Shown piece after piece: positions 2,920-26,713 of a stretch of DNA of 64,000 bases; positions within the stretch are counted from its first letter, which is position 1, and each line of letters starts with the position of its first letter. The stretch lies in IMG/VR virus record IMGVR_UViG_3300042383_000523, positions 1-64,000 of that record. One strand, given 5' to 3'. The position numbers and the translations under genes are program-made. Origin of the DNA: a virus. The notes under the pieces were generated by a model. The model did not search any database. It was not told the origin of the DNA and worked only from the letters and a program-made list of their open reading frames with translations.

Positions 2920-5900
2920 TTGGAAAAAAGTCATAATTAGCGGCTCGAATGCTGCTTTAAATTCTCTTAATGTTTCAAACGGAATTACAGGTTCTTTATT
3001 TGGGACCGCTTCATTTGCCTCTAATGGAGGTGTAACTCAATTATTAGCAGGACCAAACATAACATTATCACCAACAAATGGTAAAGGTCAAGTTACAGTT
3101 TCATCAACTAGTGGTGGAGGTGGCTTTAATACAGCAACAGGATCTTACGGTAGTTTTTACGATACTACAACTCAAACTAATGTAGCAGGTACTGCTCGCT
3201 CAATGTCTTTCAATACGACAGATATTACAAATGGAGTATCAATATCAGGATCAACAAATCCTTTTAACACTTATATCAAGACTGAAAATGCAGGTGTATA
3301 TGATATACAATTTTCTGCTCAAGTAGATAAAACAGATAGTGGTACAGATGAAATATGGATTTGGTTAAGAAAAAATGGAACAAATTTAACAGATACTGCA
3401 ACATCGATACAATTAGTTGGTAATGAAGCTCATTATGTAGCAGCATGGAATTTCTTTGTTAATTCAGCTGCAAATGATTATTATCAATTAATGTGGTATT
3501 CACCGGATGCTAACGTACGCTTACACGCAGAACCTGAATTTGGAGTAGTACCAGGTATTCCTTCAGTAATAGTAACAGCAAATAGAGTAGATCAATTCTT
3601 ATCAAACACAGGTTCATTTACAGGCTCATTTACAGGAGTATTTACAGGTTCATTATTTGGAACATCTTCATTTGCTTCAACAGCACAAACAGCATCATTT
3701 GTAACAGGATCAAACGTATTTGGGCCATTTGGTTCTAACAGTGTAATAAGTGCTTCTTTTGCTCAAACAGCATCATTCTTAAACAGTACAACAAATGCAT
3801 TTATTCAAAACGGAAATTCATTTGGTACAACAGCATTATTAGGAACAAACGACAATCAACCACTTGCTTTAGAAACAAATGGAACAACTAGAATGTTTAT
3901 TTCTAGTAGTGGGGACGTAGGTATTGGAACGACAAGTCCAAATGGTAAGTTAGAAATTAGAGGAATTGAATCAAATACAAAAGATTTACTTTTAAATTTA
4001 TCTAAATTTGCTTACGGAACAACACAATTTTATCAAAACTATTCAAATACATTTTACACTGCTGGAAAAAGTTTAGAAATTGAAGTTGAGGCTTTACCTT
4101 TATTACAATTAGCTGTTAACAATGCTGGTTCCCAAGGTAAAGTTATATTTCCAAACGGTAACGTAGGTATTGGAACAACAAGTCCTGGAGGTAAATTACA
4201 TATTTCTGGTGCAGGTTCTGGCCTCGCATTAACTTTTGGTAATAGTGTTCCTAATAATCCTTTATTTATAAATACTTATGGGGATTGGAGTGGAATTGGT
4301 ATGGATCAATCAAATGCTGGTCTTAGGCTTGTTGGAGATTATACTAGTGGAGCTTCATTAGTTGATATAGGATATTACTCATCAGGTACAGTATCTCATG
4401 CTAATTGGGTTAGTAAGGTTAAAGTAATGCAGAGTGGTAACGTAGGTATTGGTACAACAAGTCCAACTTACAAATTTGAAGTAAGTGATGGTACAAGAAC
4501 AGGAGTAATAAACCCAAACTCAGGGTTAGACGCAATCTTTATAGGGGTTACTCAATCCAAACCATTAATTTTTGGAACTGGTGACACAGAAAGAATGCGT
4601 ATTACTTCAGCAGGTAACGTACTAATAGGTACAACCACAGATGGTGGAAATAGGCTTGAAGTAGTTGGGACAGCAAATAATTGGGCAGGAAGCTTTACAG
4701 GAAATACAACAACTGGCCAATCTTATGGAGCAATTGTAAGAGGTGGAACAAATAGTTCAGATGTTGCTTTTAATGTAAATAACGCAGCAAATTCAACAAC
4801 CTACCTTAACGTAAGAGGAGATGGTAACGTAGGAATTGGAACAACTTCGCCTGATGCTCCATTAGATATTGAGAATACAAATGCAACATCTATAATTTAC
4901 CAAAGAACAGGTGTATCTGCTAAGAAATGGGGTTTTGTTAGTGATAATAGTAATACTTATTGGAGCAATATAACTGATAACACATTACCGTTTACATTAA
5001 GTAATAGCGGTAACGTAGGTATTGGAACAACAGGCCCTTCTCAAAAATTAGATGTAAGCGGAAGTGCTTATATTGCTGGTAATATTATTCTTCCTCAAAA
5101 CCCTACAGGTACTACATATGGAAATGGTGTGTCTGCCTCTCCTCCATATATGATAAATCAAGGAGCAGGTGATAATGACGCTATACGATTCTATGCAGAA
5201 TCTGCTGCTACTAATCAGGTAAGTATGGTATTTGAGGTAAACGATGATATAGAAACTGCCGGTAGTGAATGGATATGGAGAAATAAAAAAACTTATGGAG
5301 GCTATGAAGCTACTACTCCTATGCGCCTTAGTGGGGCAGGTGAATTAGAGGTTTCAAAAATTGTAGCTACATCAATAACAGGTTCTTTATTAGGGACAGC
5401 ATCATTTGCTCAAACAGCATCATTCTTAAACAGTACAACAAACGCCTTTATACAAAACGGAAATTCATTTGGAACAACAGCATTATTAGGAACAAATGAT
5501 AATCAACCACTTGCTTTAGAGACTAATGGAACAACTAGAATGTTTATTTCTAGTAGTGGTGACGTAGGTATTGGAACGACAAGTTCATTAGGGCCATTAG
5601 AGGTATATAGAGGAAATTCTGGCGGATTAGGTGGACATATTATTGTAAATAATAATGGATTAGCAATTGGTAGTTCAACCGCTTTAATGTTTGGAGATGG
5701 TCCTATAAACGGTATTCGTGGTGCAATTTCAACAACTACAGAAGACTCTCCGTACTATGGGCAGATGGACTTTAAGACAGGTGCTGATATTTATAGTAAT
5801 TTGTTTACAAGAATGACTATAAAAGGAAACGGTAACGTAGGTATTGGAACAACAAGTCCATCTTATAAATTAGATGTTTTAGGAGATATTGGAGCTTATG

Positions 5901-17902: not shown

Positions 17903-18403
17903 ATGGCTTTATACGGTTCATCTAGAGATATTTCATTTTTTCATGTTATTAACAGAGAGTTAATTCATAACATCATTGAACAAAACATAGGATATTATCA
18001 AATATCACTAGATGAAACCTCTGTAAATGTATATGGTGAAGCAGCTAATGGTACTAAAATGTACTATCCGCCTGTTTTAATTCAATGTTTAATTGACAGA
18101 GGTGATTATGAAGGTGATTATGATGCTCAAATCGGACCTGACTTTACTAGAAATTTTTCATTTAGATTTTTAAGAAGAGATTTAGTTGACCAAAACGTAG
18201 TACCTCAAATAGGTGATGTTGTTTTATGGAATAATGATTATTATGAAGTTAATTTAGTAAACGAAAACCAAGACATAGTAGGTAAAGTACCTCAATACAA
18301 TTATGGAGGGGCTTACTTAGATGATTTTGGAGCAAGTTTTTCAATAATTTGTAATGCACATTATGTATCACCAGAATCATTAGGATTAACTCAAACTAGA
18401 TAA
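17903..18403 (+). CDS. Neck protein, gp14-like
   Basis: 166 residues. SRDISFFHVINRELIHNI followed by a beta-rich core with GDVVLWNNDYYEV resembles head-tail connector proteins of the gp14 type. Its stop codon overlaps the start of the gp15-like gene (TAATG), matching the T4 order 13-14-15. No membrane segments. The match to gp14 rests on gene order and general fold rather than a diagnostic motif. Confidence 0.6.
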   Translation: MALYGSSRDISFFHVINRELIHNIIEQNIGYYQISLDETSVNVYGEAANGTKMYYPPVLIQCLIDRGDYEGDYDAQIGPDFTRNFSFRFLRRDLVDQNVVPQIGDVVLWNNDYYEVNLVNENQDIVGKVPQYNYGGAYLDDFGASFSIICNAHYVSPESLGLTQTR

Positions 18404-20307
18404 TGGCAAATCAATTACCAATATTACCAAATACACCAGCTCGTGCTTTAAATGAATATATAGAACCGTACATACCAGGTACAAAACCTATATTACCTGA
18501 AGATTTAATAACTAGAGCTAGTCAAATATCTGTTGATATTGAAAACGATGTTAAACCATTTTCAATTGGATTACAAGATATTGATGATGCTGTATTCTTT
18601 TACTTTAATAATATTATAAAACCAACAATAGTTCAAAATGGTAATCAAATACCTGTACCTGTTTCTTATGCTTCTGCTGAAAGATGGGTATCTGTTCAAA
18701 AAGATGGGTATTTTAGAGATAAGAATGGAAAAGCAATGCATCCATACATTATTGTAAGAAGAACTGGATTTGAAAAAAATAGAACATTAGCAAATAAATT
18801 AGATGGTAATAATGTAAATAACTTTGCTGTTGCTAGAGCTAGGTATAATTCTCAAAATCAATACACCAATTTTGATGTTTTAAATAACGTAACACCATCT
18901 GAGAAATTCTATTTAACTCCTGTACCAGATTATGTTAATATAACGTACGAATGCGCCATTATTACCAATTTTATTCAAGAAAACAACAAAATCGTCGAAT
19001 CAGTAGAGTTTGCGTCAGATTCGTATTGGGGTGATAAAAATCGTTTTCAATTTAGAACATATATTGATAGATTTGACTCTACAAATGAATATGGTGTGAG
19101 TGATCAACGTATAGCCAAAACAAGTATGAATTTAACACTTTATGGTTATATTATTCCTGACACTATCAATAGAGATATGGCTACAAATGGTAAAAAACAA
19201 TTCTTCTCTAAATCAATTGTTTCCATTACCGCCGAAACTTCAGTTAATGCTGATGGGAGAATAGCAGCTCCTACTGCCCCAAGAGTTAGTCAACCTTTAC
19301 CTAGTGTAATACCAAGTATATCAATTACACCAAGTATATCAATTACGCCTAGTGTAACACCAAGTATAAGTATATCACCTAGTATTACACCAAGTACATC
19401 AATTATACCTAGTATATCTGTAACACCAAGTATTACTCCAAGTATATCAATCACACCTAGTGTAACACCAAGTATAAGTATATCACCTAGTATTACACCA
19501 AGTACATCAATTGTACCTAGTATATCTGTAACACCTAGTGTTACACCAAGTAATACACCAAGTATATCAATTACACCAAGTGTAACGCCTAGTATAACAC
19601 CATCACTAAGTTCAGCACCTACTACTGGGGGTAGTATAGATTTTGGGAATGAATTAGGTAGGTATGCTATTACAAATTTAACAAATAGTAATTATTCATT
19701 AGGATATAATGATTTTACAATTGAATGGTTCCAAAAACTTACTACTTTCGATGATACCCTTAATAATATAACTCCATTTTCTATATACAATTCAGACTTA
19801 GATTTTTTATATTTTACTCTTCAAGATGACGGTGCTCCTAATATAAGGTGTTACATCAACCCAGTGGTAAATGATACATTCCAACAATATGTTTTTGATA
19901 CTAACGTACCTCTTACAACATTATTAGACTGGACTCATATTGCACTTGTTAGAGTAGGAACCTCATTAAAAATATACATTAATGGTACTTTTGCTAACCC
20001 AAGTGATTATACTTTAGGAAATGTAAATTTACAACCATTATTATCAAAATTAATCATTGGAAATACAGGAAGAACTCCGTCAAGTTGGAAATTCCCAGGA
20101 AAAATAACTAACTTTAATTTTGTTAACGGAACTGCCTTATATAACAGTGATTTTACACCACCAACAGCACCATTATCACCATCAGCTAACACTAAATTAT
20201 TGTTATTAGCTACAGATAATGCTGGATTATTAACAGACTCAAGTGGATTGAATATAGTTGTAAATAATATTAATGGGGTAACATGGAGTTCTGATACTCC
20301 TTTTTAA
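18403..20307 (+). CDS. Tail terminator (gp15-like) fused to TPS stalk and LamG-type domain
   Basis: 634 residues. Residues about 60-290 correspond to T4 gp15, the tail terminator: IPVPVSYASAERW, VNITYECAIITNFIQENNKIVESV and TSMNLTLYGYIIPD align with the equivalent T4 segments. Residues about 300-405 are TPS repeats (tract 19300-19612). Residues about 410-630 look like a concanavalin-type LamG/lectin domain (FTIEWFQK, WTHIALVRVGTSLKIYINGT, LIIGNTG). T4 gp15 is only about 270 residues, so the second half is an extra, probably carbohydrate-binding extension exposed at the neck. The fusion reading frame is continuous. Confidence 0.8.
   Translation: MANQLPILPNTPARALNEYIEPYIPGTKPILPEDLITRASQISVDIENDVKPFSIGLQDIDDAVFFYFNNIIKPTIVQNGNQIPVPVSYASAERWVSVQKDGYFRDKNGKAMHPYIIVRRTGFEKNRTLANKLDGNNVNNFAVARARYNSQNQYTNFDVLNNVTPSEKFYLTPVPDYVNITYECAIITNFIQENNKIVESVEFASDSYWGDKNRFQFRTYIDRFDSTNEYGVSDQRIAKTSMNLTLYGYIIPDTINRDMATNGKKQFFSKSIVSITAETSVNADGRIAAPTAPRVSQPLPSVIPSISITPSISITPSVTPSISISPSITPSTSIIPSISVTPSITPSISITPSVTPSISISPSITPSTSIVPSISVTPSVTPSNTPSISITPSVTPSITPSLSSAPTTGGSIDFGNELGRYAITNLTNSNYSLGYNDFTIEWFQKLTTFDDTLNNITPFSIYNSDLDFLYFTLQDDGAPNIRCYINPVVNDTFQQYVFDTNVPLTTLLDWTHIALVRVGTSLKIYINGTFANPSDYTLGNVNLQPLLSKLIIGNTGRTPSSWKFPGKITNFNFVNGTALYNSDFTPPTAPLSPSANTKLLLLATDNAGLLTDSSGLNIVVNNINGVTWSSDTPF
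19300..19612 (+). repeat. Thr-Pro-Ser repeat tract 5
   Basis: In-frame ISITPSVTPSISISPS repeats linking the tail terminator part to the lectin-like part. A higher-order unit of about 100 bases (SISITPSVTPS...STSIxPSISV) is duplicated within it. Confidence 0.85.
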
Positions 20308-20969: not shown

Positions 20970-22754
20970 ATGGCAGAAGCAATTATTTCTCCTGGTGTTT
21001 ACACCAATGAAAATGACCAGAGTGCAGTAACTCAAGGCCCAATCGAAGCTGGAGCAGCTATTGTAGGTCCTACAGTTAATGGTATTCCATATATTCCAAC
21101 ATTAGTTACTACATATAGTGATTATGTTGCAAAATTTGGAAGTACTTTTGAAAGTGGTGCTAACGGTAATTTTGAATATTTTACCTCATTAGCAGCTAAA
21201 AATTATTTTGACAATGGTGGAAACACATTGTTAGTAACAAGAATTACACATGCTGGGACAGGTTCATCAGCATTGCAATCATTTGCATCTGCAAGTATTC
21301 CGATAAGTGGTTCTACAGCATCAGAATTCCCAGCATCATCAAGTTTTGAATTAGAAACTTTAGCATGGGGTAACCAAATGAACAACTCAGGAAGTGTATT
21401 ATCTTCAGGAGCTCTAGTAACAGGAAGTGCTACTAACGTTCGTTGGGAAATTAATCAAGTAGATTACTCAAGAGGTACATTTACTTTATTAGTTAGAAGT
21501 GGTAATGATAATGCTGCTCAACCAAATGTTCTTGAAACATGGAACAACCTATCAATGGATGTTAATCAACCTAACTATATTGCTAGAGTAATTGGTAATA
21601 CTAAACCAGTATATACTTACTCAGCAGCTGATGGTCAAGGATATATTGATGTTCAAGGTGATTTCCCGAATGCTTCAAGATATATAAGAGTAGCAGATGT
21701 TGCTCAAGCACAATATAATACATTTGACAATAATGGAAATTATATATCTGCTTCATTTAGTGGTAGTTTACCAAACTTAGGAAGTGGTTCATTAGCAGGA
21801 GCATTTAATGGTGGTATTGCAGATACTAACTTAGGTAAATTTATGTTTGAAAACATAACAACAGCTGCTACAAATGCTCAAGGATTTACAGCTGCAGATT
21901 ATGCTGTTGCTTTAAATTTATTAAACAACACAGACGAATATCAATTTAATTTATTAATGACTCCTGGTTTATTCCTTAATGCTGGTACTGCACCTGCAAT
22001 AGGTTCAAACGGAGCTGATCCAATCGCATTATGTGAAGGAAGAGCAGATGCTTTAGCAGTAGTTGACCCAGTACCTTATGGTGGTTCAATAACAAGCGCT
22101 AAAACAGCAGCAAATGCTTCAAATTCAAGCTACGCAGCAACATACTGGCCATGGTGTCAAGTATTTAGCTCAGCAATGGGTAAATTAGTATGGGTTCCTT
22201 CTTCAGTATTAATGGGAGGTGTATTTGCTTTCAATGATGAAGTAGCTGCTCCATGGTTTGCACCAGCAGGTATTACTAGAGGTGGTATCCCAAATGTAAC
22301 AAGAGTTGAAAGAAGATTGTCATTAAACGACAGAAACAACTTATATTTAGATAATGTAAACCCATTAGCTACATTCCCTGGAAACGGTGTTGTAGTATTT
22401 GGTCAGAAAACATTACAACAAAAAGCAACAGCTTTAGATAGAGTAAATGTTAGAAGATTGTTAATTGCATTAAAAGGATTTATTGGTGGTGTAGCTCGTG
22501 GATTAGTATTTGAACAAAACACTGCTACTACAAGAAATGCATTTTTAAATCAAATTAATCCATACTTAGACAGTGTAGTACAAAGACAAGGTTTATTTGC
22601 TTATAAAGTAGTAATGGATGAGTCAAATAATACACCAAGTGTAGTAGATAGAAATCAATTAATTGGTCAAATTTATATCCAACCAACTAAAACTGCTGAA
22701 TTCGTAATATTAGATTTCACAATTTTACCAACTGGTGTTGAGTTCCCATCTTAA
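20970..22754 (+). CDS. Tail sheath protein (gp18-like)
   Basis: 594 residues. The N-terminal ISPGVYTNENDQS is the classic sheath start, and the C-terminal third (VERRLSLNDRNNLYLDNVNPLATFPGNG, VNVRRLLIALKGFI, FLNQINPYLDSVV) is the conserved sheath core. The insertion domain (about residues 110-330) is Ser/Asn rich. It forms the contractile outer tail. It precedes the tube gene, as in other myoviruses. AATATTTAT at 20917-20925 may belong to its promoter. Confidence 0.95.
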   Translation: MAEAIISPGVYTNENDQSAVTQGPIEAGAAIVGPTVNGIPYIPTLVTTYSDYVAKFGSTFESGANGNFEYFTSLAAKNYFDNGGNTLLVTRITHAGTGSSALQSFASASIPISGSTASEFPASSSFELETLAWGNQMNNSGSVLSSGALVTGSATNVRWEINQVDYSRGTFTLLVRSGNDNAAQPNVLETWNNLSMDVNQPNYIARVIGNTKPVYTYSAADGQGYIDVQGDFPNASRYIRVADVAQAQYNTFDNNGNYISASFSGSLPNLGSGSLAGAFNGGIADTNLGKFMFENITTAATNAQGFTAADYAVALNLLNNTDEYQFNLLMTPGLFLNAGTAPAIGSNGADPIALCEGRADALAVVDPVPYGGSITSAKTAANASNSSYAATYWPWCQVFSSAMGKLVWVPSSVLMGGVFAFNDEVAAPWFAPAGITRGGIPNVTRVERRLSLNDRNNLYLDNVNPLATFPGNGVVVFGQKTLQQKATALDRVNVRRLLIALKGFIGGVARGLVFEQNTATTRNAFLNQINPYLDSVVQRQGLFAYKVVMDESNNTPSVVDRNQLIGQIYIQPTKTAEFVILDFTILPTGVEFPS

Positions 22755-23391: not shown

Positions 23392-24153
23392 ATGACAGAT
23401 TTCAAATTTCCAACCGAAATTATTACTTTACCCTCTAAAGGTCTTGTTTATCCTGAAACATCACTATTAGCTAAAGGTGAAATTGAAATGCGCTATATGA
23501 GCGCTAAAGATGAAGATATTTTAACCAATATTAACTTTATTAAACAAGGAACAGCAATTGATAAATTGTTAAAATCACTTGTAGTATCACCTGTTGATAT
23601 TGATGATTTAGTAACAGGAGATAAAAATGCAATCTTATTTGCTGCTCGTGTATTAGGATACGGACACGACTACACATTCCAGTTTAGAAACCAAGCTACT
23701 GGAAAAGATGAAGATTACACTGTTGATTTAACTAAACTAGAAGAAAAACCAATAGACGAGGCATTATTTACTCAAGGTAAAAATGAATTTGATTTTACAC
23801 TTCCTAAATCAGGAAATAAAGTAACATTTAAATTATTAACAGGTAAAGATGAAAAATCTATTGATGCTGAAATTAAAGGTTTACAAAAAATAGATGCTAA
23901 TGCTTCATATGAAAACATAACACGTTTAAAACATATGATTACATCTGTTAATGGAAAAACAGACAAGGTACCAATATATGATTTTATAGACAATTATTTA
24001 CTAGCACCAGATTCAAGAGCATTTAAAAAATATTACAACGATATTTCACCTGACATAGATACCACAGTCACTATTGATAAGGATGGATACGTACAGGAGG
24101 GCGTAGTTATCCCTATAGGGATTAGCTTTTTTTGGCCTGACTTCCAAGTATAG
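23392..24153 (+). CDS. Baseplate hub/assembly protein (gp26-like), zero frame
   Basis: 253 residues. LPSKGLVYPE, IEMRYMSAKDEDILTN and the helical VVSPVDIDDLVTGDKNAILFAARVLGYG are typical of the T4 gp26/gp51 baseplate family (T4_baseplate). The zero frame ends in VIPIGISFFWPDFQV just after a seven-T run. A second conserved-looking segment follows in another frame (24134-24394), so part of the product is probably extended by frameshifting. It acts in baseplate or tail assembly before the tape-measure gene, where tail-assembly chaperones usually lie. Confidence 0.8.
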   Translation: MTDFKFPTEIITLPSKGLVYPETSLLAKGEIEMRYMSAKDEDILTNINFIKQGTAIDKLLKSLVVSPVDIDDLVTGDKNAILFAARVLGYGHDYTFQFRNQATGKDEDYTVDLTKLEEKPIDEALFTQGKNEFDFTLPKSGNKVTFKLLTGKDEKSIDAEIKGLQKIDANASYENITRLKHMITSVNGKTDKVPIYDFIDNYLLAPDSRAFKKYYNDISPDIDTTVTIDKDGYVQEGVVIPIGISFFWPDFQV

Positions 24154-24394
24154 AGAATACTTATTCACTAAAATCCATGAAATATGCTTTTATGGACAGG
24201 GTGGTTATGATTGGGATACTATATACAATTTACCAATAATGTATCGTGAATTTATTTATCATAAAATTCGTGAACATTACGATAAACAAAAAACGGATTC
24301 CGAAAAACAACAAAAAATGATGCAATCTAAAACAGCAACAACTGTTAAACCATCAACTAAACCAACATATACAGCAAAAGCCCCACGAAAGTAG
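24134..24394 (+). CDS. Frameshift extension of the gp26-like protein
   Basis: In the +1 (equivalently -2) frame from the T run at 24127-24133, an open segment of 86 codons runs to TAG at 24394. It encodes FYGQGGYDWDTIYNLPIMY and REFIYHKIREHYDKQ, which looks like the C-terminal part of tail-assembly chaperones of marine T4-like phages. No ATG lies at its start; the first in-frame ATG cuts through the conserved part. A +1 slip on TTTTTTTGG gives a 333-residue product, a -2 slip 334. A homopolymer sequencing error is the alternative. Confidence 0.65.
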   Translation, partial: GLTSKYREYLFTKIHEICFYGQGGYDWDTIYNLPIMYREFIYHKIREHYDKQKTDSEKQQKMMQSKTATTVKPSTKPTYTAKAPRK

Positions 24395-24403
24395 GGCTTT
24401 TCA
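24376..24403 (+). terminator. Rho-independent terminator at end of frameshift segment
   Basis: AAAAGCCC (24376-24383) pairs with GGGCTTTT (24394-24401) around a GAAA-type loop. It overlaps the stop codon of the extension segment, separating it from the tape-measure gene. Confidence 0.75.
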
Positions 24404-24427: not shown

Positions 24428-26713
24428 ATGGCAGTAGGTACAAATAATGATGAATTAAACCAATATAATGATCTATTAAGAGAATCGATCAATTATTCTA
24501 GACAACTATCTGATAATATTTTAGCTTTAGCAGGTAGAATGTCTAATTTATCTATAGCAGCTCGTGCTACTAGATCTGCTATGACTGATATCAATACAGA
24601 TATTAAAAATACTTTAAAATTATCTGATAAATTAAATCAGGGAAAATTAAAGCAAAAAGATATTGAAACTCAAATAGCTAAGATTACAAACACATATGCT
24701 AAGTATATTGAAGAAACTAATAATGGTGTTAATAACATTAATGAGGTATATCAAAAACAAAGAGATTTACTTGTTGATATAAACACCGAAATATCTCGCC
24801 AGAATACTTTACAAAGTGATATTAATAATTCATATAATAATCTTAATTCACTACAACAACAACTTGCTAATATAAATAGTCAAATAGTTGGATCTAATCT
24901 TCAACAACAACAAAGTTTACAAAATCAAGCATCTATTATTCAAACTTTAATTAAAGATGAAACTGATACTTTAAATATAAAAGAAAGACAATTAGATACT
25001 TCTAAAAGAATAAGTAGAGAATTAAATGAAGATATATCTAAAACTGACAGAGTTATAGAATCTCATGAAAGATTATTAGAAATATACGAACAAGAATTAG
25101 ATAAAGCTAAGAAAATAAAAGAAGCTTTAGAAGCCCAAAACACCCCAGCATCACGATTAGTTCAAACTTTTAAAGATATACAAGGTGTATTAGGACCATT
25201 TACAGTTATATTTAACTTCTTAAGAAAAGTAGCATTTGATGTTTCTGCTCAAGTTACTCAACTTCAAAAAGGTTTGATGTTATCATCTGATGAAGCATAT
25301 CAAGTAAGAAGTGAATTTAATGAATTAGCTGTTGCTTCTGGTAATGTTCTTATTACTACTAATGCTTTAGTAGCATCAAATGCTGCTTTAGGTAAACAAT
25401 TAGGATTCAATGCTCGTTTTAGTAATGATGCTGTTGTTGAGTTTACAAAATTAACTAAACAAATTGGTTTAAGTGAAGAAGCAGCTGGTGGTTTAGCTAA
25501 ATTTGCTAAAGCTAACGGCATGACTTTAGAAGAAACTAAAACCACAGCTTTAGGAGTATCACAACAATTATCTTCACAATACGGAATACAATTAGACCAA
25601 AAAGAAGTACTTGAGGAAATAGGTAAAATATCTGGCCAAACATTAGCAATGTTTAAAGCTAATCCTGCTGCCTTGGCTCAAGCGGTTGCTCAAGCAAAAC
25701 TTTTAGGAACTACTTTAGATATAGCTAAAAAACAAGCATCTGCTTTACTTGATTTTGAATCATCTATTGAAAATGAATTACAAGCAGAATTAATAACTGG
25801 ACAACAATTTAATTTAGAAAGAGCAAGATCTGCTTCATTAATGGGTGATTTAACAACGGTAATGAAAGAACTTAACAACCAAGGTGTTGATTTTAATAAG
25901 TTCTCTAACATGAATGTTATTGCTCAAGAAAAAATGGCAGCAGCATTAGGATTATCAACAGATGAATTATCAGATCAGTTATTAAAAGAACAATATATGA
26001 ACATGTCTAGAGAACAAGTAGTTGCTCTAGCAGGTGAAGAAGTTGCAAAACGTTTAGAAGCAGTTAGTGCTCAAGATAAATTCAACGCTGCTGTAGAAAA
26101 AATGCAAGATGCATTTGCAAACATAGCGGGTGGTCCTTTAGGACAAATAGCAGAAATGATGGCTAAAACACTTGAAAGTTCATTAGGATTGTATGGTATA
26201 TTAGTAGCTATTGGTGGAATATCCTTAGGAAAAACTTTAGCATCTGTAGCAACTTTAGCTTTAGAATTAGGATTTGCTGCTTCTGGAGCTATTGCTACTG
26301 CATCTGCTATATCCTTTGGACTGGCTGCTGTTGGTATTGTAGCAGGTATTGCTGCAATGATGGGAGCGTTTGACGATGCTAAACAAGAAGCAACACAAAT
26401 GGGTGATGGATTCTTTTCTAAAGGTAAAACAATAATATCGACTAAAGAAGGAGGATTGTTTGAAACAAGTCCAAATGATGAAATAGCAGTAGCACCTGGT
26501 ATAGGTGATATGATTAACAGATCTCAAAACCCGTCAACTACTGTAGTACAACAAGACAATAGTGCTTTATTAAGTGCAGTTAATACATTAATTACTGAGA
26601 CTAAAAACACAAATAGTGGTTTAGATAGATTGAATGCAAAACAAGCAGTAGTTAAAGTAGATAGTCAAAGTTTAGGAACAGCTCAAATTATAGGTAACTA
26701 TAACTTGGCCTAA
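24428..26713 (+). CDS. Tail tape-measure protein
   Basis: 761 residues. The N-terminal 240 residues are a long coiled coil (RISRELNEDISKTDRVIESH). Residues about 580-660 hold a Gly/Ala-rich hydrophobic stretch (LGLYGILVAIGGISLG, IATASAISFGLAAVGIVAGI) typical of the membrane-active part of tape measures. A conserved-looking globular region lies between. Its length sets tail length, and the encoded chain is long enough for a tail near that of T4. It follows the gp26-like chaperone, the usual order. CATATTTAT at 24402-24410 precedes it. Confidence 0.85.
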   Translation: MAVGTNNDELNQYNDLLRESINYSRQLSDNILALAGRMSNLSIAARATRSAMTDINTDIKNTLKLSDKLNQGKLKQKDIETQIAKITNTYAKYIEETNNGVNNINEVYQKQRDLLVDINTEISRQNTLQSDINNSYNNLNSLQQQLANINSQIVGSNLQQQQSLQNQASIIQTLIKDETDTLNIKERQLDTSKRISRELNEDISKTDRVIESHERLLEIYEQELDKAKKIKEALEAQNTPASRLVQTFKDIQGVLGPFTVIFNFLRKVAFDVSAQVTQLQKGLMLSSDEAYQVRSEFNELAVASGNVLITTNALVASNAALGKQLGFNARFSNDAVVEFTKLTKQIGLSEEAAGGLAKFAKANGMTLEETKTTALGVSQQLSSQYGIQLDQKEVLEEIGKISGQTLAMFKANPAALAQAVAQAKLLGTTLDIAKKQASALLDFESSIENELQAELITGQQFNLERARSASLMGDLTTVMKELNNQGVDFNKFSNMNVIAQEKMAAALGLSTDELSDQLLKEQYMNMSREQVVALAGEEVAKRLEAVSAQDKFNAAVEKMQDAFANIAGGPLGQIAEMMAKTLESSLGLYGILVAIGGISLGKTLASVATLALELGFAASGAIATASAISFGLAAVGIVAGIAAMMGAFDDAKQEATQMGDGFFSKGKTIISTKEGGLFETSPNDEIAVAPGIGDMINRSQNPSTTVVQQDNSALLSAVNTLITETKNTNSGLDRLNAKQAVVKVDSQSLGTAQIIGNYNLA

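Follow-up and report, generated by a model that had tools for sequence, protein, structure and literature searches.

A probable +1 programmed frameshift in a single-copy homologue of the T4 tail assembly chaperone genes 26 and 51

The tail assembly chaperones of the T4-like phages have reportedly been identified already, by Vladimirov, Gautam and Davidson in 2022 (Virology 566:9–15), so that the chaperone identity of the gene described here is not new. A 2016 review presents T4 as the exception to the chaperone frameshift that is otherwise conserved in the long-tailed phages (PMC5009743). Two papers that cite this study (PMC10885494, PMC12846349) describe poly-T −1 signals in the TAC-N genes of T4-like phages, as well as a short gene accompanied by a long fusion gene in some of them.

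The gpG/gpGT pair of phage lambda and the E/E+E' pair of P2 resemble the present locus in the production of two forms from one gene, through a shift near its 3' end, immediately before the tape measure gene, but they depend on −1 tandem slippage, and no sequence relation to the gene of the present phage was detected. The tail gene of phage Mu reaches the same relative frame, and its function is probably the same, although the shift there is −2, whereas the codon-level constraint in the present family fits +1. The T4 chaperones (gp26/gp51) are alike in their family (PF12322/PHROG 150), their place before the tape measure gene, the logic of a short and a long form, and a gp51 with a tail homologous to the extension described below; T4, however, has two genes, the short gp26 and the long gp51, where the present phage has a single gene with a probable +1 shift at UUU_U.

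The re-pairing of an NUU codon to UUU in the P site, which is proposed here, is also that of bacterial RF2 (prfB), in which CUU_U is the conserved site and UUU_U is found in a minority of species, UUU_U being the weaker +1 site in E. coli (PMC5009743). Both CUU_U and UUU_U occur in the present family. The RF2 site differs in having the stop codon UGA in the A site and a Shine-Dalgarno element 3 nt upstream, whereas the A-site codon is UGG in the present phage, and no Shine-Dalgarno element was found 3 nt 5' of its shift codon. The RF2 shift is autoregulatory, while that of the present gene would set a ratio of products. The +1 shifts of the Listeria phage PSA capsid and tail proteins, and the G-T shift of HSTV-2, which is very likely +1 (PMC5009743), are further parallels, given that the shift adds a C-terminal extension to a tail-related protein; in PSA, however, the codon of the shift is one for proline and the extended products are major virion proteins, and HSTV-2 is an archaeal virus. 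The present analysis contributes the +1 direction of the shift, its UUU_U site, an upstream hairpin that shows covariation and carries GGAGG in the loop, and a contrast with relatives whose sites are of the −1 type. No description of a +1 polarity with such a site rule, or of the upstream hairpin, was found in the open-access papers that were searched.

Layout of the locus and its reading frames

The window, which is the whole stretch of 64,000 nucleotides analysed (IMG/VR virus record IMGVR_UViG_3300042383_000523), includes a series of tail genes in the order sheath, tube, chaperone and tape measure:

20970–22754, + strand: tail sheath gene, 594 aa, preceding the tube gene; its 3' end has a DNA match to the sheath gene of the Flavobacterium phage immuto
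22795–23286, + strand: tail tube protein gene (PHROG 4542 tail tube, E 2e-13)
23392–24153, + strand: gp26-like gene, putative short tail assembly chaperone (TAC-N), with a zero-frame product of 253 aa
24127–24133, + strand: run of seven T; the slip site proper would be UUU_U at 24130–24133, the second Phe codon and the next T
24134–24394, + strand: 86-codon extension in the +1 frame, putative C-terminal domain of the long chaperone (TAC-C)
24151–24153, + strand: zero-frame stop TAG, 17 nt past 24134, where the new frame begins
24428–26713, + strand: tape measure protein gene, 761 aa (BLASTP 3e-34 to an immuto protein annotated as tail tape measure protein)

No tRNA genes were found within the window. 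An ORF of 634 aa lies 5' of the tail genes (18403–20307), with long Ser/Ile/Thr/Pro repeats (SITPSVTPS) in the middle of the protein.

The zero frame reads ATT AGC TTT TTT TGG CCT GAC TTC CAA GTA TAG, and its closure soon after the T run had been predicted correctly to the base. The +1 frame reads GGC CTG ACT TCC AAG TAT AGA onward from 24134, and ends in the TAG at 24392–24394. This frame opens only at 24119, and no ATG, GTG or TTG occurs in it before 24239, which already belongs to the conserved part of the extension, so that the extension as a whole lacks a start codon; the original prediction, of an 86-codon segment in the +1/−2 frame with no start of its own, thus stands, no independent start for the whole segment being present in the window. 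A search by hand of the window recovered no start codon that might be served by the GGAGG found upstream (TAG at 24116–24118 blocks the +1 frame), and alignment column counts revealed no start codon at a fixed position in the +1 frame of the relatives.

After the T run, the −1 frame encodes F L A and then stops, which bears out the exclusion of a simple −1 slip in the window, although related phages do use −1. No slippery heptamer of the form X_XXY_YYZ leading into an open −1 frame is present, given that this frame stops after three codons. No downstream RNA structure was detected at the slip site (z 1.27 and −0.54), nor did any Rfam family reach its gathering score there.

It is considered highly probable that a +1 programmed frameshift at UUU_U yields both a short and a long tail chaperone from this one gene. 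The majority of the ribosomes would terminate at 24151–24153, releasing the gp26-like short form of 253 aa. In a minority, the peptidyl-tRNA-Phe would occupy the P site on UUU 24130–24132, with UGG waiting in the A site, and would shift one base forward to UUU 24131–24133, after which decoding would resume with GGC CUG ACU, and the long product, 333 aa in length, would end in a helical C-terminal domain of 86 residues. By analogy with lambda gpG/gpGT, the short form may coat the tape measure protein, while the extension may recruit the tail-tube subunits.

Homology to T4 gp26 and gp51

The label "gp26-like" had been assigned from the sequence alone, and is borne out by database profiles, with the short form matching Pfam PF12322 (T4_baseplate) at 28.6 bits, against a cut-off of 24.5, and PHROG 150 (baseplate hub) at E 1.2e-11. 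The short form and the extension were also modelled separately with AlphaFold, from the unmodified translations. The model of the gp26-like protein (pLDDT 91) matched T4-like baseplate hub proteins in a Foldseek search of BFVD, including that of phage SP-15 (E 5e-18), and its only sensible match in the PDB, the HK97 tail assembly chaperone 2ob9, was not significant (E 1.6, probability 0.35). No match was found between the gp26 profile and the PDB sequences, or between the model of the extension and the PDB folds.

In T4, there are two PF12322 genes, gp26, which fills the family (residues 1–206 of 208), and gp51, which matches on residues 1–201 and has some 48 residues beyond. A single match was recovered in each of S-PM2, P-SSM2, the Pelagibacter phage HTVC008M, KVP40, phiM12, phiW-14, SP-15, RM378, Atu_ph07 and others. 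The PF12322 scan recovered no match in either immuto or the Microcystis phage Mel-JY01, and the gp26 homologues of these two phages were recovered by tblastn. In S-PM2, KVP40 and HTVC008M, gp26 is followed by a short "gp51" gene (baseplate hub assembly catalyst), which is described in the KVP40 annotation as similar to a 40-residue stretch of the C-terminus of T4 gp51, and the gp51 of S-PM2 fits positions 240–281 of PHROG 150.

A profile of ten extensions was aligned by hhalign with a profile of seven gp51 tails from cyanophages, KVP40 and T4, with a probability of 96 and a score of 43.4, in comparison with a maximum score of 15.1 in 200 column-shuffled decoys. Taken by itself, the T4 gp51 tail has diverged too far for a direct match to the extension profile, but it does match the other gp51 tails. 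These alignments identify the extension as the counterpart of the C-terminus of T4 gp51, and the gene, by its profile matches, as a single-copy homologue of the T4 genes 26 and 51. Given the homology of both the gene and its extension, the products would be the short and the long tail assembly chaperone, a function that is attributed from homology and gene order.

The gp26 tree joins T4 gp26 and gp51 as sister branches (96/85) inside the KVP40/cyanophage group, with gp51 on a long branch, which suggests that the two T4 genes arose by duplication from a one-gene ancestor. The T4 relatives thus appear to keep the single-gene frameshift, and T4 gp26 and gp51 look like its duplicated, hard-wired form. 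In the jumbo phage LR756511 (L169 / L194), a gp51-like tail is apparently a separate ORF, which follows an extended gp26-like ORF and begins at TAATG.

Conservation of the frame relation and direction of the shift

Separate searches of the IMG/VR database, one for the short form and one for the extension, recovered 160 loci. The extension is in the +1/−2 frame relative to the short form in 159 of the 161 analysable loci (the window and immuto included), and the slip site CTTTTTTTGGCCTGAC is near-invariant among the relatives. The two apparent exceptions, in frame 0, are explained by an upstream indel next to a normal site (L163) and by an inserted endonuclease ORF (L135). Pairwise differences in the extension fall on codon positions 1, 2 and 3 of the +1 frame at 28, 17 and 54%, respectively, and the single-base codon changes include 14283 synonymous against 7119 nonsynonymous ones, in pairs that are not independent of one another. 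These patterns indicate that selection maintains the protein encoded by the extension in the +1 frame, and the conservation that had been surmised from a single sequence is thus confirmed by the comparison. The new frame begins 17 nt before the zero-frame stop in 97 of the 152 relatives, as in the window, and 11 nt before it in 47.

The layout is shared with the isolated phages immuto and Mel-JY01. In immuto (NC_055915), the homologue is annotated as "baseplate hub subunit", and the extension, with 40% identity, follows CTTTCTTTGGCCTGAC in the same relative frame, the annotation covering only its last part. Such unannotated extensions have a bearing on how isolates are annotated, immuto, SP-15 and RM378 among them. 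That the T run was misread or misassembled, or that the gene has decayed, is scarcely credible here; homopolymers are error-prone, but over 100 distinct sequences have the layout, as do isolates that come from separate projects.

The extension might also represent a separate gene with a start of its own, like the annotated short gp51 of the cyanophages. The gp51 tail is annotated separately, with an ATG at the gp26 stop, in S-PM2 and KVP40, and the extension of L135 carries its own ATG, being cut off by a GIY-YIG endonuclease ORF. In the window, however, the first potential start comes after the best-conserved part of the extension, and 81 of the 152 relatives have no ATG, GTG or TTG before nt 60 of the extension frame (117 have no ATG), while a separate gene would not explain a slip site that is conserved at synonymous positions. 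The probability of this reading is considered to be very slight. In L135 itself (3230–4271), the GIY-YIG-like ORF between the gp26 stop and the extension creates a natural split of the two parts.

Three possibilities, a +1 slip, a −2 slip and slippage of the RNA polymerase, were weighed on the variants of the site. A +1 slip requires a P-site codon that is able to re-pair one base forward, that is, the second Phe codon followed by T, whereas a −2 slip requires T at the last two positions of the first Phe codon. In the unbiased set, which consists of the loci retrieved without reference to the slip site, the sites were TTT TTT TGG (105 loci), TTT CTT TGG (6), TTC TTT TGG (2) and TTT TTT TAC (2). 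The second codon was thus TTT in 109 loci and CTT in six, but never TTC, which makes up 19% of the Phe codons elsewhere in the genes (log10 P −12.7, on an assumption of independence that is untrue of related sequences). Scans of IMG/VR recovered at least 52 true gp26 sites among the 120 matches listed for TTCTTTTGGCCTGAC (TTC-TTT-TGG), and a single true site (L331) among the 120 listed for TTTTTCTGGCCTGAC (TTT-TTC-TGG), while none of the 90 matches in the complete scan for TTCTTCTGGCCTGAC (TTC-TTC-TGG) was a true gp26 site. In L331 (3514–3560), where the variant site is GATTTTTTCTGGCCTGAC, UUU_U occurs earlier by one codon, and the extension frame has another FFGLT-like stretch downstream.

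Every site-bearing member of the +1 clade has NUU_U, and variation is seen in the first Phe codon. The constraint falls only on the second codon and the next base, so that NUU_U is what is kept before the A site, and the site variants of the relatives therefore favour +1 over −2. P-site slippage on UUU_U or CUU_U, of the RF2 type, is thus supported by the pattern of variants. The original prediction had left the choice between +1 and −2 undecided; the variants favour the first of its two options, and the second fares poorly.

A −2 shift of the Mu kind, in which the P-site tRNA would move back two bases and one extra Phe would be inserted, produces the same frame relation, and the unbroken T run of the window would permit perfect −2 re-pairing. 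In the relatives with TTC TTT TGG (at least 52 sites in the scan and two in the unbiased set), however, the same re-pairing would place a mismatch in the middle position, on UCU, and yet the frame relation is the same. The conserved part of the site, the second codon and the next base, is a need of +1, and the TTCTTTTGG relatives are incompatible with clean −2 re-pairing of the Mu type. A −2 shift is accordingly considered improbable.

Transcriptional slippage on the seven T, through which mRNAs with one U fewer or two more would join the frames, would be in keeping with the homopolymer found in the window phage and in most of the unbiased relatives. Seven T is nevertheless a short run for the slippage of an RNA polymerase, and the relatives with TTTCTTTGG (immuto and others) and TTCTTTTGG, in which the T runs do not exceed four, have the same layout, which makes this explanation very improbable. 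A programmed frameshift into the +1/−2 frame, in a chaperone gene before the tape measure gene, as originally predicted, is thus supported by the comparative evidence, and most probably takes the form of a +1 shift by the ribosome.

Relatives in the −1 frame and the upstream hairpin

The extension is in the +1 frame in Mel-JY01, the jumbo phage LR756508, SP-15, LIS04, the Streptococcus phage GXN1 and RM378, and in the −1 frame, after a T_TTT_TTN heptamer, in XacN1, RAS14, Atu_ph07, S-PM2, P-SSM2, HTVC008M, KVP40, phiM12 and phiW-14. Few changes are needed to place these two labels on the gp26 tree. A strong stem-loop is found just 3' of the heptamer in S-PM2 (z −5.5), XacN1 (−5.0), P-SSM2 (−3.5) and Atu_ph07 (−2.5), and none was found there in HTVC008M, phiM12 or KVP40. 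Among 11 members of the +1 clade that were folded in the same way, none has a downstream stem-loop (z −1.1 to +1.35). In S-PM2 and P-SSM2, GGAGGG is located 9–10 nt 5' of the heptamer, and a Shine-Dalgarno sequence 9–14 nt before the heptamer is at a spacing known to stimulate −1 shifts (PMC5009743). Together with their strong stem-loops, the junctions of these two phages are predicted to be textbook −1 frameshift signals. The gp26/gp51 junction is TTTTTTC in both S-PM2 (NC_006820; L182, 2179–2245), the record of which annotates two separate genes, and P-SSM2 (NC_006883; L181, 2180–2230). The family offers natural +1 and −1 versions of one recoding event, which may be useful for the study of the evolution of shift polarity.

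A different structure is found on the 5' side of the slip site in the window:

24087–24106, + strand: upstream hairpin, with a stem formed by 24088–24092 and 24101–24105, and an 8-nt loop, ACAGGAGG
24096–24100, + strand: GGAGG, Shine-Dalgarno-like, in the hairpin loop

Five of the six pairs of the hairpin are formed in this phage, the outermost positions (24087/24106) being unpaired. In 102 of the 115 relatives of the +1 clade, the GGAGG begins at exactly −31, counted from the first T, and a Shine-Dalgarno-like 5-mer is present within 45 nt upstream in 111 of the 115, compared with 3.9% of the control windows from the same genes. This motif is kept through the rare codons GGG, GAG and CAG (GAG represents 9% of the Glu codons elsewhere in the genes), which points to selection at the nucleotide level. 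In 35 relatives analysed by RNAalifold and pair counts, 88.6% of the cells were paired, against 24–47% in slid structures, with 43 double-change cells, compared with 18 after shuffling. All six pairs are found in 64% of the loci, compared with 10.5% after synonymous codon resampling. The more distant TTCTTTTGG group lacks the hairpin.

The hairpin, 21–40 nt 5' of the slip site, is likely to modulate the shift. Some 29 nt separate its GGAGG from the P-site codon, more than the 3 nt known from RF2, and the hairpin could refold behind the ribosome. It is proposed, as a tentative possibility, that the GGAGG-loop hairpin is a new type of +1 stimulator acting behind the ribosome, through refolding at the exit or the catching of the anti-Shine-Dalgarno, for example. 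If this were true, the T4 superfamily would present three solutions for a single chaperone pair: a +1 shift with its hairpin on the 5' side of the site, a −1 shift with its hairpin on the 3' side, and a duplication of the gene.

Two other inverted repeats were observed in this part of the window. A hairpin that resembles an intrinsic terminator (ATCCCTATAGGGAT, 24109–24122) adjoins the T run, and its sequence has no counterpart in the distant relatives. A second terminator-like repeat, AAAGCCCCACGAAAGTAGGGCTTTT (24378–24403), spans the end of the extension and the stop codon, and has a sub-threshold match to RsmY on the minus strand.
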